Positions 1,769 through 8,893 of a stretch of 10,117 nt of DNA are shown here, piece after piece. Numbering within the stretch: position 1 is the first letter of the stretch; each line of letters opens with the position of its first letter. A model generated the notes under the pieces. It did not search any database and was not told where the DNA came from. It worked only from the letters and a program-made list of their open reading frames with translations. Source of the stretch: Solirubrobacterales bacterium (GTDB taxonomy: Bacteria; Actinomycetota; Thermoleophilia; Solirubrobacterales; Solirubrobacteraceae); assembly GCA_013695395.1 (NCBI GenBank), contig JACDAP010000025.1, positions 1 through 10,117 of the forward strand, given 5' to 3'. The position numbers and the translations under genes are program-made.

Positions 1769-3094
1769 TCAGACCGGAGAGATCTGGGAGGGCGGCCGCG
1801 ATGATCCCGGCGTGGGCAGTCCATCCGGCCATTCGGTCGGTCCGCGACGCTCGGCAGCCGGGGCGGCGAGGAGGCTCGGCATCGACGCCGCCAGCGTCAC
1901 GTGGACACCTCGAAGCGCGGTGGAGACCCGTCGAGGAGCGAACAGCCGCGCGCAGAGCAGGAACCAGAGTGGGACCGCCCACGCGAGGAACACCACCCCC
2001 TCGAGGTCGACGTGCGTCCCGCGCAGAGCGTTGAAGGACGCCGCCGTCGCCAGGGCCACGATTCCGCTCAGGACCGGCGGGCGACGCCGGAGCCCGCATT
2101 CCCACGTGAGCAGGACGATGACGAACGGGACGAAGTAGTAGTTGATGCTCCAGGTGTCGAGGAGACAGCGGGTGAGAAAGGCGAGCGCGAGCGCCAGAGC
2201 CGCGTCACTCGCGCGAGCACCGTCGATCCTCGAGCGCGCCAGCGCCCACACGGCGCCGACCCCGAGTCCGCCGAGTGCGACCAACGGATGGGTCAGCTTG
2301 GCGATCAGCGGCGGAGCGATGCGCGCACCCTCGGGGGCTCCGGGCGTGGGATTGCCGGGCTCGCCGAGGAACCAGAAGAGCTGCCACGGGTGGAACAACG
2401 TCCCGGAGGAGGTGGCCAACCGCGTCCCCTCGGTGACCCGCCCGGCCGCCAGCACCAGCGGCACCATGACCGCCGCGGCGATCACCCCCGCGATCGCACC
2501 GGCCCGCAGACGATCACCGTGCGTCGGGAGAACGGAAAGGACAGGGACCACCGCGAACACGGCCCACGCCTTGTTCGCCAGGGCCGCGCCGAGCAGCGCA
2601 CCCGCCAACCACGTGCGCCCGCTGATCGCGGCACCGACGGCGGCGGCGCACAGCACCCCGCCGAGCAGCTCCTCGGCGTGCCCGAACTGGAGAGCCGCGA
2701 AGAAGAGCGGATGGACGATGCACAGCGCCAGCGCCACCCACGCGCCGAGCGGGGAGCGTGCGCGGAGACGATGGAAGAGCACCATGCCGAGCGCCGCAGC
2801 GGCGAGGATCGCCGGCACGGCGAAGGCGCGGAAGACGGCCAGCTCACCGCCGCCGAGCAGGGCGGTGACGCGGGCGAAGGGTGCCCGGAGGAGGAGCGAG
2901 CCGCCGTAGAGCGGCGCAGCGTCGTAGAAGTCGCCCCACCGGCCCTCGGCGATGGCGGTCGCGGAAGGGAGCGCCTCGATGTCGTAGTCGCTGAAGGCGA
3001 AGTCGACGAGCCCGATCGCGGCGAGGTAGCACGACGCGACGAGGCAGAAGAGCAGCGGAGGGAGCTCGCGACGGACGGTGCTCAGCGACGGCAT
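1769..3094 (-). CDS. Multi-pass membrane protein, GT-C glycosyltransferase-like
   Basis: This is a 441-aa very hydrophobic protein with about ten predicted membrane segments, e.g. around residues 11-33, 88-108, 116-136, 143-158, 162-188, 197-217, 270-287, 297-313, 319-332, 342-355 and 366-384. The first outer loop holds a DYDIE motif (residues 36-40), followed by a long soluble stretch. An acidic motif at this place, with many helices, is typical of GT-C (dolichol/polyprenyl-phosphate-sugar dependent) transferases. An FGHAEE motif (137-142) and an NKAW motif (174-177) are further landmarks. The last 50 residues are Pro/Ser/Arg-rich and probably cytoplasmic. The start has AGAGGA about 7 bases upstream. 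It lies between two pilin genes, so modification of pilins or surface glycans is a reasonable idea. No catalytic family was confirmed, and a generic hypothetical membrane protein is the alternative. Confidence 0.75.
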   Translation of the reverse strand: MPSLSTVRRELPPLLFCLVASCYLAAIGLVDFAFSDYDIEALPSATAIAEGRWGDFYDAAPLYGGSLLLRAPFARVTALLGGGELAVFRAFAVPAILAAAALGMVLFHRLRARSPLGAWVALALCIVHPLFFAALQFGHAEELLGGVLCAAAVGAAISGRTWLAGALLGAALANKAWAVFAVVPVLSVLPTHGDRLRAGAIAGVIAAAVMVPLVLAAGRVTEGTRLATSSGTLFHPWQLFWFLGEPGNPTPGAPEGARIAPPLIAKLTHPLVALGGLGVGAVWALARSRIDGARASDAALALALAFLTRCLLDTWSINYYFVPFVIVLLTWECGLRRRPPVLSGIVALATAASFNALRGTHVDLEGVVFLAWAVPLWFLLCARLFAPRRVSTALRGVHVTLAASMPSLLAAPAAERRGPTEWPDGLPTPGSSRPPSQISPV

Positions 3095-3145
3095 CTGCGT
3101 TCCTCTCGTGGTGCGGCGGTGACGTGAGGTGGGTCCGGACGTGCG

Positions 3146-3171
3146 AAGGGCGGGCCCGGAGGCCCGCCCTT
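3146..3171 (-). terminator. Hairpin terminator after the major pilin gene
   Basis: A perfect 11-bp GC-rich stem (AAGGGCGGGCC pairing with GGCCCGCCCTT) closes a 4-base loop. It begins 27 bases past the pilin stop codon and ends 51 bases before the GT-C-like gene. No clear U-tract follows on the minus strand, which is common for high-GC actinobacterial terminators. It would separate an abundant major-pilin transcript from the genes beyond it, either fully or as an attenuator. Confidence 0.72.
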
Positions 3172-3198
3172 GCGGAAGTGCTGCGGTGGGGCTAGGTG

Positions 3199-3609
3199 CT
3201 ACCAGCCACCGGAGGAGTTGCAGCCGCCGACGCCGGACGCGCTACAGGTGCGGGAGAACTCGCCCGAGCCGGTCTTCGTGATGGTGAACGTACGGCCGTC
3301 CTTGGAGGCGGCGACGACGTTGTACAGACTGTCGACGACCGCGCTGACGGTGACGGTGCCCGCCACGCCCGGCGCGTTCGTGCAGTCGGCCGGCTGCTGC
3401 GTGAGGCAGGACTCGACCTGGGTGATCGCGTTACGAGCATCGGACTTGGCCGAGGAATCCTCGGCCTTCTTCGACTGACCCAGGAAGGTCGGAAGGGCGA
3501 TCGCGGCGAGGATGCCGATGATCAGGATGACGACCAGGAGCTCGATCAGGGTGAAGCCCTTCTCGTCGTCGTTGGCGCCACGAAGGCGGTTGAGCATGCG
3601 CTGCAGCAT
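3199..3609 (-). CDS. pilA: Major type IV pilin, PilA-like
   Basis: This is a 136-aa prepilin: an 18-residue charged leader ending DDEKG, cleavage before FTLIE, Glu5 at residue 23, and a classic hydrophobic helix with the conserved Pro22 of the mature form (residue 40, ALPTFLGQ). The mature protein is about 118 aa, in the range of compact major pilins and type II secretion-type pseudopilins. Four cysteines (68, 76, 122, 130) could form two disulfides, one of them near the C-terminus. The sequence ends in a Gly/Ser tail with a terminal Trp. The frame stays open upstream to 3696, but the ATG at 3609 is chosen because AGGAGG lies 7 bases before it and because the upstream codons fall in the structured leader. 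The riboswitch upstream and the strong terminator downstream suggest its own regulated, high-level transcript. A pseudopilin such as GspG is the main alternative. Confidence 0.93.
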   Translation of the reverse strand: MLQRMLNRLRGANDDEKGFTLIELLVVILIIGILAAIALPTFLGQSKKAEDSSAKSDARNAITQVESCLTQQPADCTNAPGVAGTVTVSAVVDSLYNVVAASKDGRTFTITKTGSGEFSRTCSASGVGGCNSSGGW

Positions 3610-3616
3610 TCGAGTT

Positions 3617-3622
3617 CCTCCT
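3617..3622 (-). promoter_or_regulatory. Strong Shine-Dalgarno site of the major pilin gene
   Basis: AGGAGG is followed by a 7-base spacer and then the ATG at 3609. It is the best ribosome-binding site in the window and decides the pilin start over the longer open frame. The minor pilin genes have much weaker or coupled sites, in line with the higher output expected of the major subunit. Confidence 0.88.
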
Positions 3623-3678
3623 AAGGATCTCTTGACCATGGAATATGAGTGGCCAGCTCCGCGGACGTCGGGTTCCCG

Positions 3679-3700
3679 CGGGGTCATGCTGTGCACCCCG
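3679..3700 (-). promoter_or_regulatory. Candidate expression-platform hairpin of the riboswitch
   Basis: CGGGGT (3700-3695) and ACCCCG (3684-3679) form a perfect 6-bp stem around a 10-base loop, directly after the riboswitch. Its first base, C3700, is also the last base of the P1-closing CACC. The hairpin and a fully closed P1 therefore compete at that point. No U-tract follows, so it cannot be said whether this acts as a terminator, an anti-terminator or a spacer structure. Confidence 0.4.
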
Positions 3701-3777
3701 GTGATGGCTGGGCAGCCTCCCGATGAGGAGGTCCCTGGCTTTGCGTCCCCCTCTCACGAGAGGTTTGCCCTTGCACC
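3700..3777 (-). ncRNA. c-di-GMP-I (GEMM-I) riboswitch in the major pilin leader
   Basis: On the minus strand this matches the GEMM-I architecture in order. GGTG (3777-3774) can pair with CACC (3703-3700) as P1. GGGCAAACC lies at 3770-3762. P2 is CCTCTC/GAGGGG with one G-U wobble and a GTGA (GNRA) tetraloop at 3757-3754. The invariant GACGCAAAGCC lies at 3747-3737. A second arm holds CCTCC/GGAGG (3731-3727 with 3720-3716) and GGCT/AGCC (3717-3714 with 3709-3706); these overlap by two bases, so exact pairing on that side is uncertain. The AGGG run before CAAACC keeps a G where the cGAMP-preferring variants carry A, so c-di-GMP is the likely ligand. The aptamer ends 90 bases before the pilin ATG, and the class is known upstream of pilus and motility genes in other bacteria. 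Confidence 0.88.
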
Positions 3778-3830
3778 TCGGCGCTGGCTTGCTTGCACCC
3801 CTCTGGTCGGCCGCGTGGGGTGGCGGCTTT

Positions 3831-3863
3831 AGGGTCTGGACCCCATCCCCGCAGGTTCTGGAC
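3831..3863 (-). repeat. Two GTCCAGAMCCT direct repeats, 22-bp period, upstream of the riboswitch
   Basis: GTCCAGAACCT (3863-3853) and GTCCAGACCCT (3841-3831) match at 10 of 11 bases and start 22 bp apart, close to two helical turns. They lie between the minor-pilin stop codon and the riboswitch, where a promoter or regulator site is expected. A protein-binding role is inferred only from spacing and location; chance similarity in GC-rich DNA is possible. Confidence 0.4.
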
Positions 3864-3870
3864 GTTTGTT

Positions 3871-3900
3871 GTAGTCCCGTTGCCGAGGAGGAGCGGTCAA
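3871..3900 (-). promoter_or_regulatory. Possible major pilin promoter
   Basis: TTGACC (3900-3895) resembles a -35 box and overlaps the stop codon of the PilX-like gene. An 18-base spacer leads to GACTAC (3876-3871), a poor -10. Transcription from here would give a leader of about 250 bases that includes the riboswitch. The weak -10 makes this tentative; read-through from the minor-pilin operon is an alternative. Confidence 0.22.
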
Positions 3901-5540
3901 CGCGTCGGGTTCAGGTCCCGGAACGTGCCCGGGACCACACCGGAGGTGCCGTACGCGGTGAGTGCGTTGACGATGGCGACGTCCGAGTGGATCGCCGAGC
4001 CGTAGGTCGACAGCTGGCTGCTTATGCCGGCCAACACGGTGGTGGCCGGAGTCGGGGGGATCGACAGGGTGCACAGCCCCAACACACGCAGGAGGCATCC
4101 GCCGTTGACGAGCGTCGTCACGAGGTCGTTGGCCCCCAACAGCCTCAGCGTGCTCACGACGAGCCCTGGGCAGGCGAAGATCGAGCAGATCAATTGATCT
4201 GCGTCGAAATCGGGGGGGACCGTCGCGACCATGGCGTTCTTGCCGTCGGCGTTGACCGAGCCGCGAACCCGCGCGCCCTTGTCGATCCGGACGAGCTCCC
4301 GGGTGGGCGTCGACTGCGACTGGTCGGCCGTCTGTTGGTTCAGCGCGTAGACGTTGCCCGTGAAGAGGTTCCTGGTCGCGGTCGGCGAGTAGGCGGCCCC
4401 GGTGTTCTCGCCGCGCAGGATCACGCGACCGCTGCCGATCACCAGCGCCTTGTAGCGCCGGCTCGCGGCGCTGAGGTCGATGACGCAGTACTGGTCGCCG
4501 GTTCCGACCCGCTCGATGAACACCACCGAGTTCTGCGTCGGGCTGCCGGTGATCGTGCACGCCTGCGTCGTCGCCACCGAGGAGGAACCCGGGGAGGTCT
4601 CCGAGTAGGTGCCCGAGGCACGCGCCTGCGAGCGCAGCTGTCCGATCGTCTGGACGTCGGTGGAGCTCGTCGTGGGGTACTGGGTGAACGCGCCGTTCGT
4701 GACGAGCGTGTTCACGGCGGGAACGGCACTCAGGGCGCCGATCGCGCCGGTGACGCAGGTCTTCTGCAGGCTCACGTCGTTGAGCAGCCCGCATCGCAAG
4801 CCCGTCACGCCCGAGGTGGGCACCGGGAACAGCGGGTCGGCCGCGACCACCGGGTTGGTCCCGAGCAGGTTGCCCGTCAGGCCGCTGAGCACCGTTGTGT
4901 TCGTGATCGCGGCCGTCGCGGTCGGGAGATCCTCCGAGACGTTGCCGGCGACCAGGCCGTACTTGGATTGGAGCACCGGGCCGGAGCGCACGCGAACCAG
5001 GCCGACGACTCGCCGCGGCCGGCCCTCGACGACCGATGAGGCCCGCACCCAGAGCAGGTTGTTGCCGTTGGCGTCCCAGTTGACCGTGCCGTTGGTGAGG
5101 GTCGCCTCGTTCCACACGGTCGTCGCGTTGTCGTCGTCGCAGACGTTCAGCTGCCACGTCGCGCCCGTGTACGCGACGTCGACGTACGCGGCGTTCAGCT
5201 GCGGCTGGATCAGCGCGGCGACGGTGCCCGCGGGCGCTGTGGCCCCGAGCGTCGCCGACGCAGCCGGCGTCGAACAGGCGGCTTGAACCGGCGAGTTGAT
5301 CGTGCCGCCCCCGGATGAGGCGGGCCAGTTGCGGCCGAGCACGAAGGCCTCGCTGGTGAGCACGCTCTCGCTGAGGTTGAAGCCGCGATCACGCGTCCGC
5401 TCGAGCTGCGACGAGCTCGCCTGGATGTCGACGACCGACAGCAGGGCCAACCCGAAGCCCAGCATGACCACGATCGCCAGCATCGAGGTGACGAGGACCG
5501 ATCCTCGCTCCCCGTCTCGGCCCGGTCGGCTCAGCTGCAT
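3897..5540 (-). CDS. PilX-like large minor pilin / pseudopilin
   Basis: This is a 547-aa protein with a short basic leader (MQLSRPGRDGERG) followed by a hydrophobic helix (SVLVTSMLAIVVMLGFGLALL, roughly residues 14-34). A segment then matches the PilX N-terminal layout, with Arg-rich turns and an N-L-S-E-S-V-L stretch near residue 55-61. As in PilX proteins, the FTLIE motif is loose: Ser replaces Phe1, and residue 5 is not Glu. The rest is a large Ser/Thr/Ala-rich exported domain with scattered cysteines and beta-rich segments; no catalytic motif is visible. The frame stays open far upstream, but the ATG at 5540 is chosen because it directly precedes the leader, has AGGTGG about 4-5 bases before it, and overlaps the PilW-like stop by 10 bases. 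It sits third in the order PilV-PilW-PilX, as in minor-pilin operons that prime pilus assembly. Confidence 0.85.
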   Translation of the reverse strand: MQLSRPGRDGERGSVLVTSMLAIVVMLGFGLALLSVVDIQASSSQLERTRDRGFNLSESVLTSEAFVLGRNWPASSGGGTINSPVQAACSTPAASATLGATAPAGTVAALIQPQLNAAYVDVAYTGATWQLNVCDDDNATTVWNEATLTNGTVNWDANGNNLLWVRASSVVEGRPRRVVGLVRVRSGPVLQSKYGLVAGNVSEDLPTATAAITNTTVLSGLTGNLLGTNPVVAADPLFPVPTSGVTGLRCGLLNDVSLQKTCVTGAIGALSAVPAVNTLVTNGAFTQYPTTSSTDVQTIGQLRSQARASGTYSETSPGSSSVATTQACTITGSPTQNSVVFIERVGTGDQYCVIDLSAASRRYKALVIGSGRVILRGENTGAAYSPTATRNLFTGNVYALNQQTADQSQSTPTRELVRIDKGARVRGSVNADGKNAMVATVPPDFDADQLICSIFACPGLVVSTLRLLGANDLVTTLVNGGCLLRVLGLCTLSIPPTPATTVLAGISSQLSTYGSAIHSDVAIVNALTAYGTSGVVPGTFRDLNPTR

Positions 5541-6340
5541 TCGACCACCTTCTGCGTGGTGCTGGTGACGCCGGCAGCGTCGGTGACGGTCGCGACGATG
5601 TTCGTGATGCCCTTGGGGATCTGCACTGGCGTCCCGGCGCTGCCGACCCCGAGCGAGACGCCGCCGGTGGTCGCGTAGGTGACGCCGGCCAGGCTCAGGC
5701 CGTTGGCGACGGTGCCGTTCAAGCTGAGCAGCGCCCCCGAGCTGTTGCAGGACGCTGTCACGTCCTCCGGGTTCACGATGAGGCTGCCCGCGGTCCGGCG
5801 CACGGTCGCGCTGGCTCTGAGCGTCGAGCTGGCGGTGTTGCCGCCGCCGCTGGCGTCGAGGTTGAGCGTGATCCCGACGCTGCGGACCGAGGCGGGCGTG
5901 GCCGAGCTGGCCGCGCCGTCGTAGGTGAAGGCCGTGGTGGTGCTGGCAGGCAGCGCAGCGACCACTCCCGCGGTGAATCCGCCACCCCCTGCTCCGCAGG
6001 CGCCCGTCGGCATCGTGGAGGTCGTCGAGACCGAGCGATGGAGCTGCCCCCCGGCGACGCACAGCCGCACGGTGCGTTGGCCGGTGGGTTCTATGACCGA
6101 GTACACGAGATCGTCGCCCTGGGCACGGCGGATGGTGGCCGCAGCACGGAGCTCGTCGACGGCGCGGTTCATCTCCGAGCGAGCCCGGTCGTTCGCCGTG
6201 GTCTGCCGGTTCTGCTGGGCGGCGTTGGAGCCGAACAGGTCGAAGGAGCTCAGGATCGCGAAGAGCACGATGATCGAGAGCGACATCACGACCAACAGCT
6301 CCACGAGCGTGAACCCCTCCTGACCGCGACGGTCGCTCAT
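5531..6340 (-). CDS. PilW-like minor pilin
   Basis: This is a 269-aa prepilin with a 9-residue leader (MSDRRGQEG), cleavage before FTLVE, Glu5 present at residue 14, and a hydrophobic helix to about residue 33. A polar helix rich in Arg/Glu (residues 40-66, including RARSEMNRAVDELR) follows, typical of PilW/PulJ-type minor pilins. The last 80 residues are beta-rich and end in a GITNIVATVTDAAGVTST stretch that resembles the end of HYR/Ig-like modules, so the tail may be an immunoglobulin-fold extension. Its ATG shares bases with the PilV-like stop (ATGA at 6340-6337), and its own end overlaps the PilX-like start. Three genes are therefore coupled in one operon. Assignment to PilW rather than PulJ/GspJ rests on context. 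Confidence 0.88.
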   Translation of the reverse strand: MSDRRGQEGFTLVELLVVMSLSIIVLFAILSSFDLFGSNAAQQNRQTTANDRARSEMNRAVDELRAAATIRRAQGDDLVYSVIEPTGQRTVRLCVAGGQLHRSVSTTSTMPTGACGAGGGGFTAGVVAALPASTTTAFTYDGAASSATPASVRSVGITLNLDASGGGNTASSTLRASATVRRTAGSLIVNPEDVTASCNSSGALLSLNGTVANGLSLAGVTYATTGGVSLGVGSAGTPVQIPKGITNIVATVTDAAGVTSTTQKVVECS

Positions 6341-7173
6341 GAGATCGGGGTCGGGCAGCCGGCGGGGAGCACAGCCGGTGCGACCGGGGTCGTGGTCGGG
6401 CAGTTGTTCGGCAGGCCGTTGGTCAGGAGCGTCACCTGCGAAACGCTCCGTGCTCCGTTCTCGTTCCAGGCGACGAGCACCGCGATGCGCCGCAGGTCGT
6501 CCGGGCGGCTGTCGAAGTTGACGGTCTGCGAGCCTCCGCCCGGGCAGAGGCTCGTCGGGGCCGCGCTGCTCAGAAGCCCGCTGAGGCTGTTGAAGACCGG
6601 ATTGCCCGTGCCGACCGTGTTGCAGACGGTCGCAAGCAGGCTTCCCCCGATGCTGGCGTTGACCCCGAGCACCGTGACGCCGGCGGCGGTCGCGGTGGGC
6701 GGGTTGCCTGTGCCGCCGCCGGGCCCGCCCCCGCCGGTCGCCCCGGCGCAGAACTGCGCAGGGGCGCCGTACCCGATGCCGTCGCTCGGATCGTCGATCG
6801 AGCAGGCCCCGATCGTCACGGTGTAGGTGCGTCCGCGCCGCTGCACGGTGAAGCTCGAGCCGGTCATGGGTCCCGCGTCGGGGAGCGCAGCGCGCAGCAG
6901 GCCGGGAGCCGCGGCGGCGGTCAGCGTCGTGTACTCCAGTTGCCGGCTGCGCTCGACGACCTCGCGAGCCAGGTTCGTGCCCTGTTCTCTGGCGGTCGTC
7001 GCACGCGTGCTCGCCAGCCCGCCTTCGAGCAGCACCAGCGTGCTGAGGACGCCGACCACCAGGATCACGCTCGCGACGAGCACCTCGATGATCGTGAAAC
7101 CCGCCTCCCCGGAGCGCTCGCCGCTGATCGAAGGATCCACGGTCCAGCTATCGGCAGCAACGGCCGATCGCAT
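6337..7173 (-). CDS. PilV-like minor pilin
   Basis: This is a 278-aa prepilin with the cleavage motif EAG before FTIIE; Glu5 is present (residue 30 from this start) and a helix follows to about residue 49. Residues 62-82 (the RE-GT-L-REV-E-R motif) and 110-142 (RRG...IGACSIDDPSDGIG...FC) match the large PilV-like pilin at the left of the window, so the two are paralogues. A Gly/Pro-rich linker lies at about 145-160, and cysteines flank the C-terminal half. The ATG at 7173 gives a 25-residue leader but has no visible Shine-Dalgarno. A GTG at 7140 would give a more typical 14-residue leader and is a real alternative. This is the first gene of the minor-pilin operon and is divergent from the zinc-motif gene. 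Confidence 0.86.
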   Translation of the reverse strand: MRSAVAADSWTVDPSISGERSGEAGFTIIEVLVASVILVVGVLSTLVLLEGGLASTRATTAREQGTNLAREVVERSRQLEYTTLTAAAAPGLLRAALPDAGPMTGSSFTVQRRGRTYTVTIGACSIDDPSDGIGYGAPAQFCAGATGGGGPGGGTGNPPTATAAGVTVLGVNASIGGSLLATVCNTVGTGNPVFNSLSGLLSSAAPTSLCPGGGSQTVNFDSRPDDLRRIAVLVAWNENGARSVSQVTLLTNGLPNNCPTTTPVAPAVLPAGCPTPIS

Positions 7174-7225
7174 GACGAAGTGGGGATGCCTGGCCCGACA
7201 TCCGTCCACCACGGCGGCCGGTCGC

Positions 7226-8336: not shown

Positions 8337-8609
8337 ATGGAGCATCTTGCATTGGCCGACGTCAAGAACCGCCTGTCAGAGGTCGTCGACGGGGTCGAGC
8401 GCGAACACGGACGTGTCGTGATCACCAAGCACGGACGTCCGGCCGCGGTCGTCCTGAGCATCGAGGACCTCGAGTCGCTGGAGGAGACGCTCTCGGTGCT
8501 GAGCAACCAGCCACTGATGGAGGGCCTCCGGGCGGGGATCGCCGAGTTGGACGCCGGCAGGGGCGTCACGCTCACGAAGGAAGAAGCGCTCGCGCAGCTC
8601 CGTCGCTGA
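8337..8609 (+). CDS. Phd/YefM-family antitoxin
   Basis: This 90-aa protein has the Phd/YefM N-terminal DNA-binding fold. LALADVKNRLSEVVDGVE is the helical part, and RVVITKHGRPAAVVLSIEDLESLEETL is the family's strand-turn-strand with the characteristic HGRPAAV motif (residues 32-38). The C-terminal half (about 55-90) is a charged tail expected to wrap the toxin. It is the first gene of a two-gene operon, and its TGA overlaps the toxin ATG by one base, giving translational coupling. The upstream palindrome suggests autoregulation. RelB is a looser name sometimes used for such proteins, but the motif favours Phd/YefM. Confidence 0.88.
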   Translation: MEHLALADVKNRLSEVVDGVEREHGRVVITKHGRPAAVVLSIEDLESLEETLSVLSNQPLMEGLRAGIAELDAGRGVTLTKEEALAQLRR

Positions 8610-8893
8610 TGTCGTGCGACGCGTTCGAGGTGGTGTGGAGCCCTCCGGCCCTCCGCTCGCTCAATCGGCTTCCCGAGAAGGTTGCTCTCGCGGTCGTCGA
8701 GTTCGTGCAAGGTTCGCTCGCGGGCAGCCCGCACCGGCTTGGTAAGGCCCTGCAGCTGCAGCTCACCGGAGTCCATAGCGCCCGCCGCGGGGACTACCGC
8801 GTCCTGTGCCGCATCGACGTTGGCGCCCGAAAGGTCGAGATCGCCCTCGTCGAGCACCGCTCCGACGTCCACCGCACACGCAGCGCCCAATAG
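8609..8893 (+). CDS. RelE/ParE-superfamily toxin
   Basis: This 94-aa protein has the RelE fold signature: an N-terminal strand (EVVWSP), two helices (ALRSLNRLPEKVALAVVEFV), a basic G-KALQLQLTG-HSARRGDYRVLCRID core and a C-terminal VEHRSDVHR. It would be a ribosome-associated mRNA endonuclease that is neutralised by the upstream antitoxin. R59, R60, R64 and R84 are candidate catalytic or RNA-contact residues. The end of the protein reads DVHR where related toxins commonly have DVYR, so the aromatic hydroxyl used in some RelE enzymes is replaced by His88. The start overlaps the antitoxin stop (TGATG). A ParE-type gyrase poison is a less likely alternative given the GDYRV..I core. Confidence 0.87.
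   Translation: MSCDAFEVVWSPPALRSLNRLPEKVALAVVEFVQGSLAGSPHRLGKALQLQLTGVHSARRGDYRVLCRIDVGARKVEIALVEHRSDVHRTRSAQ

Follow-up and report, generated by a model that had tools for sequence, protein, structure and literature searches.

The window, meaning the whole stretch of 10,117 nucleotides analysed here, comes from the genome of a Solirubrobacterales bacterium (assembly of 637 contigs, 87% complete), and its minus strand carries a type IV pilin locus with a structured leader. In the direction of transcription, the features are:

6337..7212, minus strand: minor pilin-like protein with N_methyl domain (PF07963, E 8.5e-5), upstream of pilA on the same strand
5531..6340, minus strand: minor pilin-like protein with N_methyl domain (PF07963, E 4.9e-6), likewise upstream on the same strand
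3897..5567, minus strand: PilX-like open frame, named by reading, start approximate, no Pfam match
3804..3831, minus strand: sigma-28/WhiG-type promoter-like sequence TAAA-N16-GCCGACCA, matching at 10/12 positions (2 mismatches)
3783..3788, minus strand: 5' strand (GCCAGC) of P0, a conserved outer helix, near the presumed transcript start; AGCCAG is enriched upstream
3700..3779, minus strand: c-di-GMP-I (GEMM-I) aptamer, by RF01051 score and covariation in 40 relatives
3777-3774 with 3703-3700, minus strand: aptamer helix P1, GGUG with CACC, by inspection
3704, minus strand: U in place of C92, a ligand-contacting base in Vibrio Vc2; 175 of the 177 distinct aptamers surveyed have C here
3652..3657, minus strand: 3' strand (GCUGGC) of P0; CTGGC is conserved in this segment
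3617..3622, minus strand: Shine-Dalgarno sequence AGGAGG of pilA, by sequence, score 6/6
3199..3609, minus strand: pilA-like type IV pilin of 136 aa, ATG at 3609 (N_methyl, PF07963, E 3.4e-10)
3146..3171, minus strand: strong G+C-rich hairpin after pilA, by sequence, a possible terminator without a U-run

The product of 3609-3199(-) has the N-terminal methylation motif of type IV pilins, and its start lies 90 nt from the end of the aptamer; the PilX-like frame ends about 118 bases before the aptamer. The sequence-only reading had placed the minor pilins upstream, which is right for the two N_methyl proteins and the PilX-like frame (7212-3897) but leaves out a further protein (1635-49) downstream of pilA, past the G+C-rich hairpin, which has a pilin-like N-terminus on reading the sequence and no Pfam match. 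A pilus motor with the c-di-GMP-binding MshEN domain had no match in the genome, at its 87% completeness. Elsewhere in the window, 8609-8893(+) encodes a ParE-type toxin domain (PF05016, E 3.8e-7), and this gene likely belongs to a toxin-antitoxin pair.

At gathering thresholds, the sole RNA match found by cmscan in the window is RF01051 (c-di-GMP-I, GEMM-I) at 3779-3700(-), which at 49.3 bits against a cut-off of 35 belongs to the family by score (E 3.1e-7; three sources searched, 4227 families). The covariance-model search on the minus strand thus agrees with the sequence-only reading, which had called a GEMM-I aptamer directly 5' of a compact pilin resembling PilA, in a genome of actinobacterial type, and the diagnostic blocks that it named are all present (GGGCAAACC, a P2 capped by the GNRA-type loop GUGA, and GACGCAAAGCC). 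The sister family RF03167 (c-di-GMP-I-GGC) also matches, at 3778-3699 (45.1 bits, E 3.5e-8), and was rejected as the proper family because this is below its own cut-off of 59. Matches to Xoo5 and CRISPR-DR29, the latter being the hairpin after pilA, were set aside as both lie under their own cut-offs. A covariance model built here from 40 relatives, the window among them, gives the aptamer 70.7 bits, a score that the window owes to this construction; nowhere else in the window does it exceed 6.3. Across the 40 aligned sequences (window included), both sides have changed in 13 of 18 pairs, with support for the P2 and P3 helices, and pairing is kept in 94.6% of cells; neither value was reached in any of 500 shuffles.

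The aptamer resembles the RF01051 family in its P2 with a GNRA loop, its P3, its core GGCAAACC/GACGCAAAGCC and its equivalents of G20 and A47. Unlike the typical member, it has U for C92, an outer helix P0 (GCCAG/CUGGC) near the transcript start and an order-wide position behind WhiG-type promoters. It is a sound GEMM-I aptamer before a pilin, which is ordinary for its class; what is unusual is that it probably stands in series with an anti-sigma factor binding the same messenger, and that it has a natural U92 pocket.

Three RF01051 matches occur in the source genome, one before pilA, one on contig C51 before an ice-binding-like secreted protein (PF11999, E 2.1e-64) and one on contig C434 before a protein without a Pfam match. 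On C51, a WhiG-type match of 10/12 ends 25 bases before the aptamer (locus L005). More widely, RF01051 is matched in 7/8 genomes of the genus, 164/399 of the class and 155/396 of the phylum, and the aptamers stand before pilins in those genus loci with enough sequence. The sequence-only reading had considered this use less familiar in the lineage, which holds for print but not, given the class and phylum counts, for nature. The titles and abstract openings searched, with most subscription journals outside their scope, gave no c-di-GMP riboswitch joined to a pilin, WhiG or RsiG in actinobacteria. The best named relatives of the pilin come from Solirubrobacterales and other Thermoleophilia. Among 80 named pilin loci, our model detects 37 aptamers, spread over 33 loci (nearly all positives in Thermoleophilia), which is a lower bound because some of the other 47 loci have incomplete upstream sequence, and a pilin motif lies downstream of all 36 distinct aptamers from these loci. 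Two adjacent pilins each have their own aptamer in L118/L123, L124/L129, L043, L048, L056 and L060. Cultured species with such loci include Patulibacter medicamentivorans, Paraconexibacter antarcticus and Solirubrobacter soli (loci L053, L060 and L078), of which the RsiG of P. medicamentivorans has already been studied (PMC8325347).

Upstream of the aptamer lies a promoter-like sequence missed in the first reading, which suggests a second c-di-GMP input on the same transcript. Under the published rule for WhiG/sigma-28 promoters (-35 TAAA, 15-16 bases, -10 GCCGATAA, at most 2 mismatches overall; PMC8325347), 3831-3804(-) is the only match in the window (0.02 expected), and its -10 ends 24 nt before the aptamer. 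With the N15 spacer, no match at up to 2 mismatches occurs anywhere in the window. When TAAA-N15/16-GCCGATAA was sought in the 100 bases upstream of aptamers, 27 of 52 pilin leaders scored at least 10/12 (at least 11 in 13, and 12 in 3), against 0.5% of shuffles, and 25/52 scored below this; 38/126 other GEMM-I leaders also reached at least 10/12 (shuffles 0.4%). In the 27 pilin leaders, the distance from the end of the -10 to the aptamer is 15-35 bases in 22 and 68-72 in 5. A consensus-free count of 6-mers in 41 pilin upstreams found AGCCAG most enriched (23, with 2.3 expected), together with CCGATA (18; 0.9), CGTCCA (18; 1.4), GCCGAT (14; 1.8) and TAAAGG (10; 0.8). Further upstream, at 3858-3870 on the minus strand, the window has AACAAACGTCCAG, close to the recurring ACGAACGTCCAG; an element near ACGAACGTCCAG occurs 65-92 bases before 13/41 pilin aptamers (shuffles 0.9%) and 2/42 others, and is perhaps an activator site.

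The genome encodes both WhiG and RsiG. A FliA/WhiG sigma factor at C277:5913-6593 scores 281.1 bits (cut-off 189.6), its closest solved relative being S. venezuelae WhiG (entry 6pfj, 261.2 bits), and the alignment to 6pfj keeps K57, G61 and R62, the c-di-GMP contacts of S. venezuelae WhiG (PMC8325347). RsiG lies at C458:9906-10118 (PF22802, 71.9 bits, cut-off 27) with 85 residues from its likely start, and its segment E-IDI-S-YK-R-RIL-H-GKI-D fits E(X)3S(X)2R(X)3[Q/H](X)3D once, as the H variant of a single motif. Single-motif RsiG is known from Rubrobacter and Thermoleophilia, including P. medicamentivorans (PMC8325347). In the class, RsiG is matched in 308/399 genomes, that is, in 151/164 with RF01051 vs 157/235 without it, as raw counts over related and variably complete genomes. 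WhiG/RsiG control of type IV pili has been proposed in Rubrobacter from promoter matches and mapped starts, in a paper whose main text makes no mention of riboswitches (PMC8325347). The (RsiG)2-(c-di-GMP)2-WhiG switch of Rubrobacter radiotolerans resembles the present case in its encoded WhiG and single-motif RsiG, its promoter type (TAAA / GCCGATAA) and its type IV pilus gene targets, and differs in that the transcript here also bears a c-di-GMP riboswitch (PMC8325347).

Since a WhiG-type promoter-like sequence lies upstream and the genome encodes WhiG and RsiG, one transcript is probably read twice by c-di-GMP. We favour, with moderate confidence, a reading in which pilA is controlled by WhiG/RsiG at initiation and then by an OFF riboswitch in its leader. 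The pilA promoter would be of the sigma-28/WhiG type, and RsiG loaded with c-di-GMP would capture WhiG, turning transcription off at high c-di-GMP. After initiation, the transcript would start just before P0 and fold the GEMM-I aptamer, where binding of c-di-GMP would alter the leader and thereby lower pilin output. Both locks would act in the same direction, with low c-di-GMP permitting pili and high c-di-GMP shutting them.

CTGGC, of the outer helix P0, occurs between the aptamer and the Shine-Dalgarno sequence in 28 of the 40 pilin leaders without a T-run (shuffles 7.5%), 25 of the 40 having an exact pairing of it with GCCAG upstream of P1, and GCCAG sits where a WhiG-type promoter would begin the RNA. 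By eye, the P0 pairing is kept with other letters in L048 (GTCAG/CTGAC) and L185 (CGCTCC/GGAGCG). Its duplex energy averages -16.7 vs -13.9 in shuffles (window z -0.9), a modest gain, so that conservation is the stronger support for P0. We rejected a platform with CUGGC capturing GCCA of P3, as P3 is GUUCC in L051, L058 and L059 (by eye), and P0 fits better because CUGGC (in L051 and L059) and the upstream CCAG persist despite the changed P3. Masking of the Shine-Dalgarno sequence coupled to P1 was also rejected, since RNAfold with and without the forced aptamer gave no consistent change: predicted exposure shifted by more than 0.15 on binding in 8/49 leaders, 6 down and 2 up. In the window, RNAfold predicts that the ligand fold costs 9.2 kcal/mol relative to the free ensemble, and that the Shine-Dalgarno exposure is 0.52 with and without the forced aptamer, independent of P1.

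The direction of switching is most readable in nine relatives of the same class (family f9: L029, L030, L162, L172, L195, L234, L244, L245 and L256), pilin leaders with a T-run hairpin between aptamer and gene. In 9/9, the 5' part of this hairpin contains GGTTTGCC, which is perfectly complementary to the aptamer core GGCAAACC, a match expected by chance in 0.27% of leaders. Terminator-like hairpins occur in 11/51 pilin leaders and 19/126 others, and the core complement in 1 of the others. The f9 terminator arm is a possible antiterminator that would capture the core directly, and the ligand should favour termination because an arm paired with the core would be incompatible with the ligand fold and would also leave the terminator weaker. 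On the simplest reading of these sequences, f9 would antiterminate without ligand and terminate with it, so that the nine relatives look like OFF switches. This mechanism is not transferable to the window, whose leader has neither a terminator with a T-run in 3050-3950 nor a core complement; for the window riboswitch itself, we lean only somewhat towards OFF. It is possible but rather unlikely that the same two sensors are combined with an ON switch, in which case pilin production would be confined to an intermediate band of c-di-GMP, because the anti-sigma factor stops transcription at high c-di-GMP. This would suit a window platform that has no terminator and whose Shine-Dalgarno exposure is P1-independent in RNAfold, and type IV pili of Clostridioides difficile are increased through a c-di-GMP riboswitch; against it stand the nine relatives, the ones with a readable platform.

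The double control that we prefer also depends on the promoter, and the riboswitch may instead be the only c-di-GMP input, with the promoter-like sequence arising by chance or used by another sigma factor. Across the whole genome, the pattern has 30 matches at up to 2 mismatches vs 12 for the reversed control (at up to 1 mismatch, 0 and 1), which makes the promoter match weak on its own, and the window -10 GCCGACCA departs from the consensus GCCGATAA. We nevertheless judge a riboswitch acting by itself improbable: in relatives, the promoter-like sequence is enriched and recurs at a set position before the aptamer, WhiG and RsiG are both encoded, and no sigma-70 promoter match occurs within 3050-3950.

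The pocket of the aptamer, with the Vc2 (Vibrio) numbering placed onto the window in this analysis, keeps the ligand-contacting G20 equivalent (3769) and the A47 equivalent, while the ligand-contacting C92 is U. As C92 is not part of the Rfam cut-off, U92 lowers the claim of tight c-di-GMP binding and leaves family membership by score intact. The direct c-di-GMP control of the pilin announced by the sequence-only reading was accordingly too strong as worded, control by the ligand being something that we infer. In a survey of 177 distinct aptamers (from 197 rows), 170 are G20/C92, 5 are A20/C92 and 2 are G20/U92, and A47 is kept in all 177; these rates are not frequencies, because most class aptamers are the best of a ranked list that is biased against pocket variants. 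Both G20/U92 aptamers, those of the window and L040, stand before pilins, and probably arose independently because their P3 helices differ. L121, the closest relative from the genus, reads GC at the place of the window's AU. From the sequence, U92 should weaken c-di-GMP binding: in the Vibrio aptamer, G20A/C92U lowers c-di-GMP affinity from 0.011 to 4900 nM (PMC9049102), and the literature searched yielded no affinity value for C92U singly.

Of the GGDEF domains encoded in the genome, the 16 scorable ones all have canonical GHxxGD, a seventeenth is degenerate, and 0/16 have the Hypr serine at the selectivity position. That serine marks cGAMP-making Hypr enzymes (PMC8835794). The likely ligand is c-di-GMP, judging from these sequences. 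The cGAMP riboswitches of Geobacter (GEMM-Ib) likewise have a GEMM-I fold with pocket changes, and the window is unlike them in keeping G20 and in a genome with no Hypr GGDEF among the 16 scored (PMC8835794). That the pocket has drifted or been retuned, with G20/U92 giving weak c-di-GMP binding or a preference for a mixed dinucleotide, for example 3',3'-cGAMP, seems quite improbable, since no GGDEF enzyme scored has the Hypr serine and the rest of the aptamer is wholly kept, even though U92 is confined to two aptamers before pilins, U could by our reasoning pair with adenine, and engineered changes alter ligand choice (G20A binds cGAMP and G20A/C92U binds c-di-AMP; PMC7288161, PMC9049102). The third GEMM-I aptamer of the genome, on C434 (L006 1501-1577 = G000:C434:2655-2731), carries A20, the substitution by which Geobacter-type aptamers of this fold come to accept cGAMP.

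Returning to control by two sensors, tfoY of Vibrio cholerae is an earlier case of a single gene answering to c-di-GMP at several levels. As proposed for the gene here, it is under c-di-GMP both at transcription and through a GEMM-I riboswitch; a transcription factor that binds c-di-GMP is combined with Vc2, a riboswitch that works as an off switch (PMC7371385). In tfoY, the factor-driven transcripts lack the riboswitch (PMC7371385), whereas here a single type of promoter-like sequence sits immediately 5' of the aptamer. For the Thermoleophilia as a whole, we propose tentatively, at slightly under an even chance, that the major pilin is under two serial c-di-GMP sensors on a single transcript, an arrangement that would be of class-wide age and reused for other surface proteins, and that in some lineages, this one included, C92U retuning lets the sensors answer different c-di-GMP levels or dinucleotides. 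The two sensors are known separately, and their union on one transcript, if true, would be a natural case of one messenger read by a protein and an RNA, giving a sharper response if both repress and a band if they are opposed. It would also provide a regulatory model for pili of deep-branching actinobacteria, which have received little study, and the natural U92 pocket would indicate how much GEMM-I ligand recognition can change in nature.

As a separate observation, genome G357 contains a pair of GEMM-I aptamers, spaced by about 2.1 kb, in three copies (L132, L134 and L135 with L136, L137 and L139), in which the sequences of the first aptamer are identical and the second differs in one copy.
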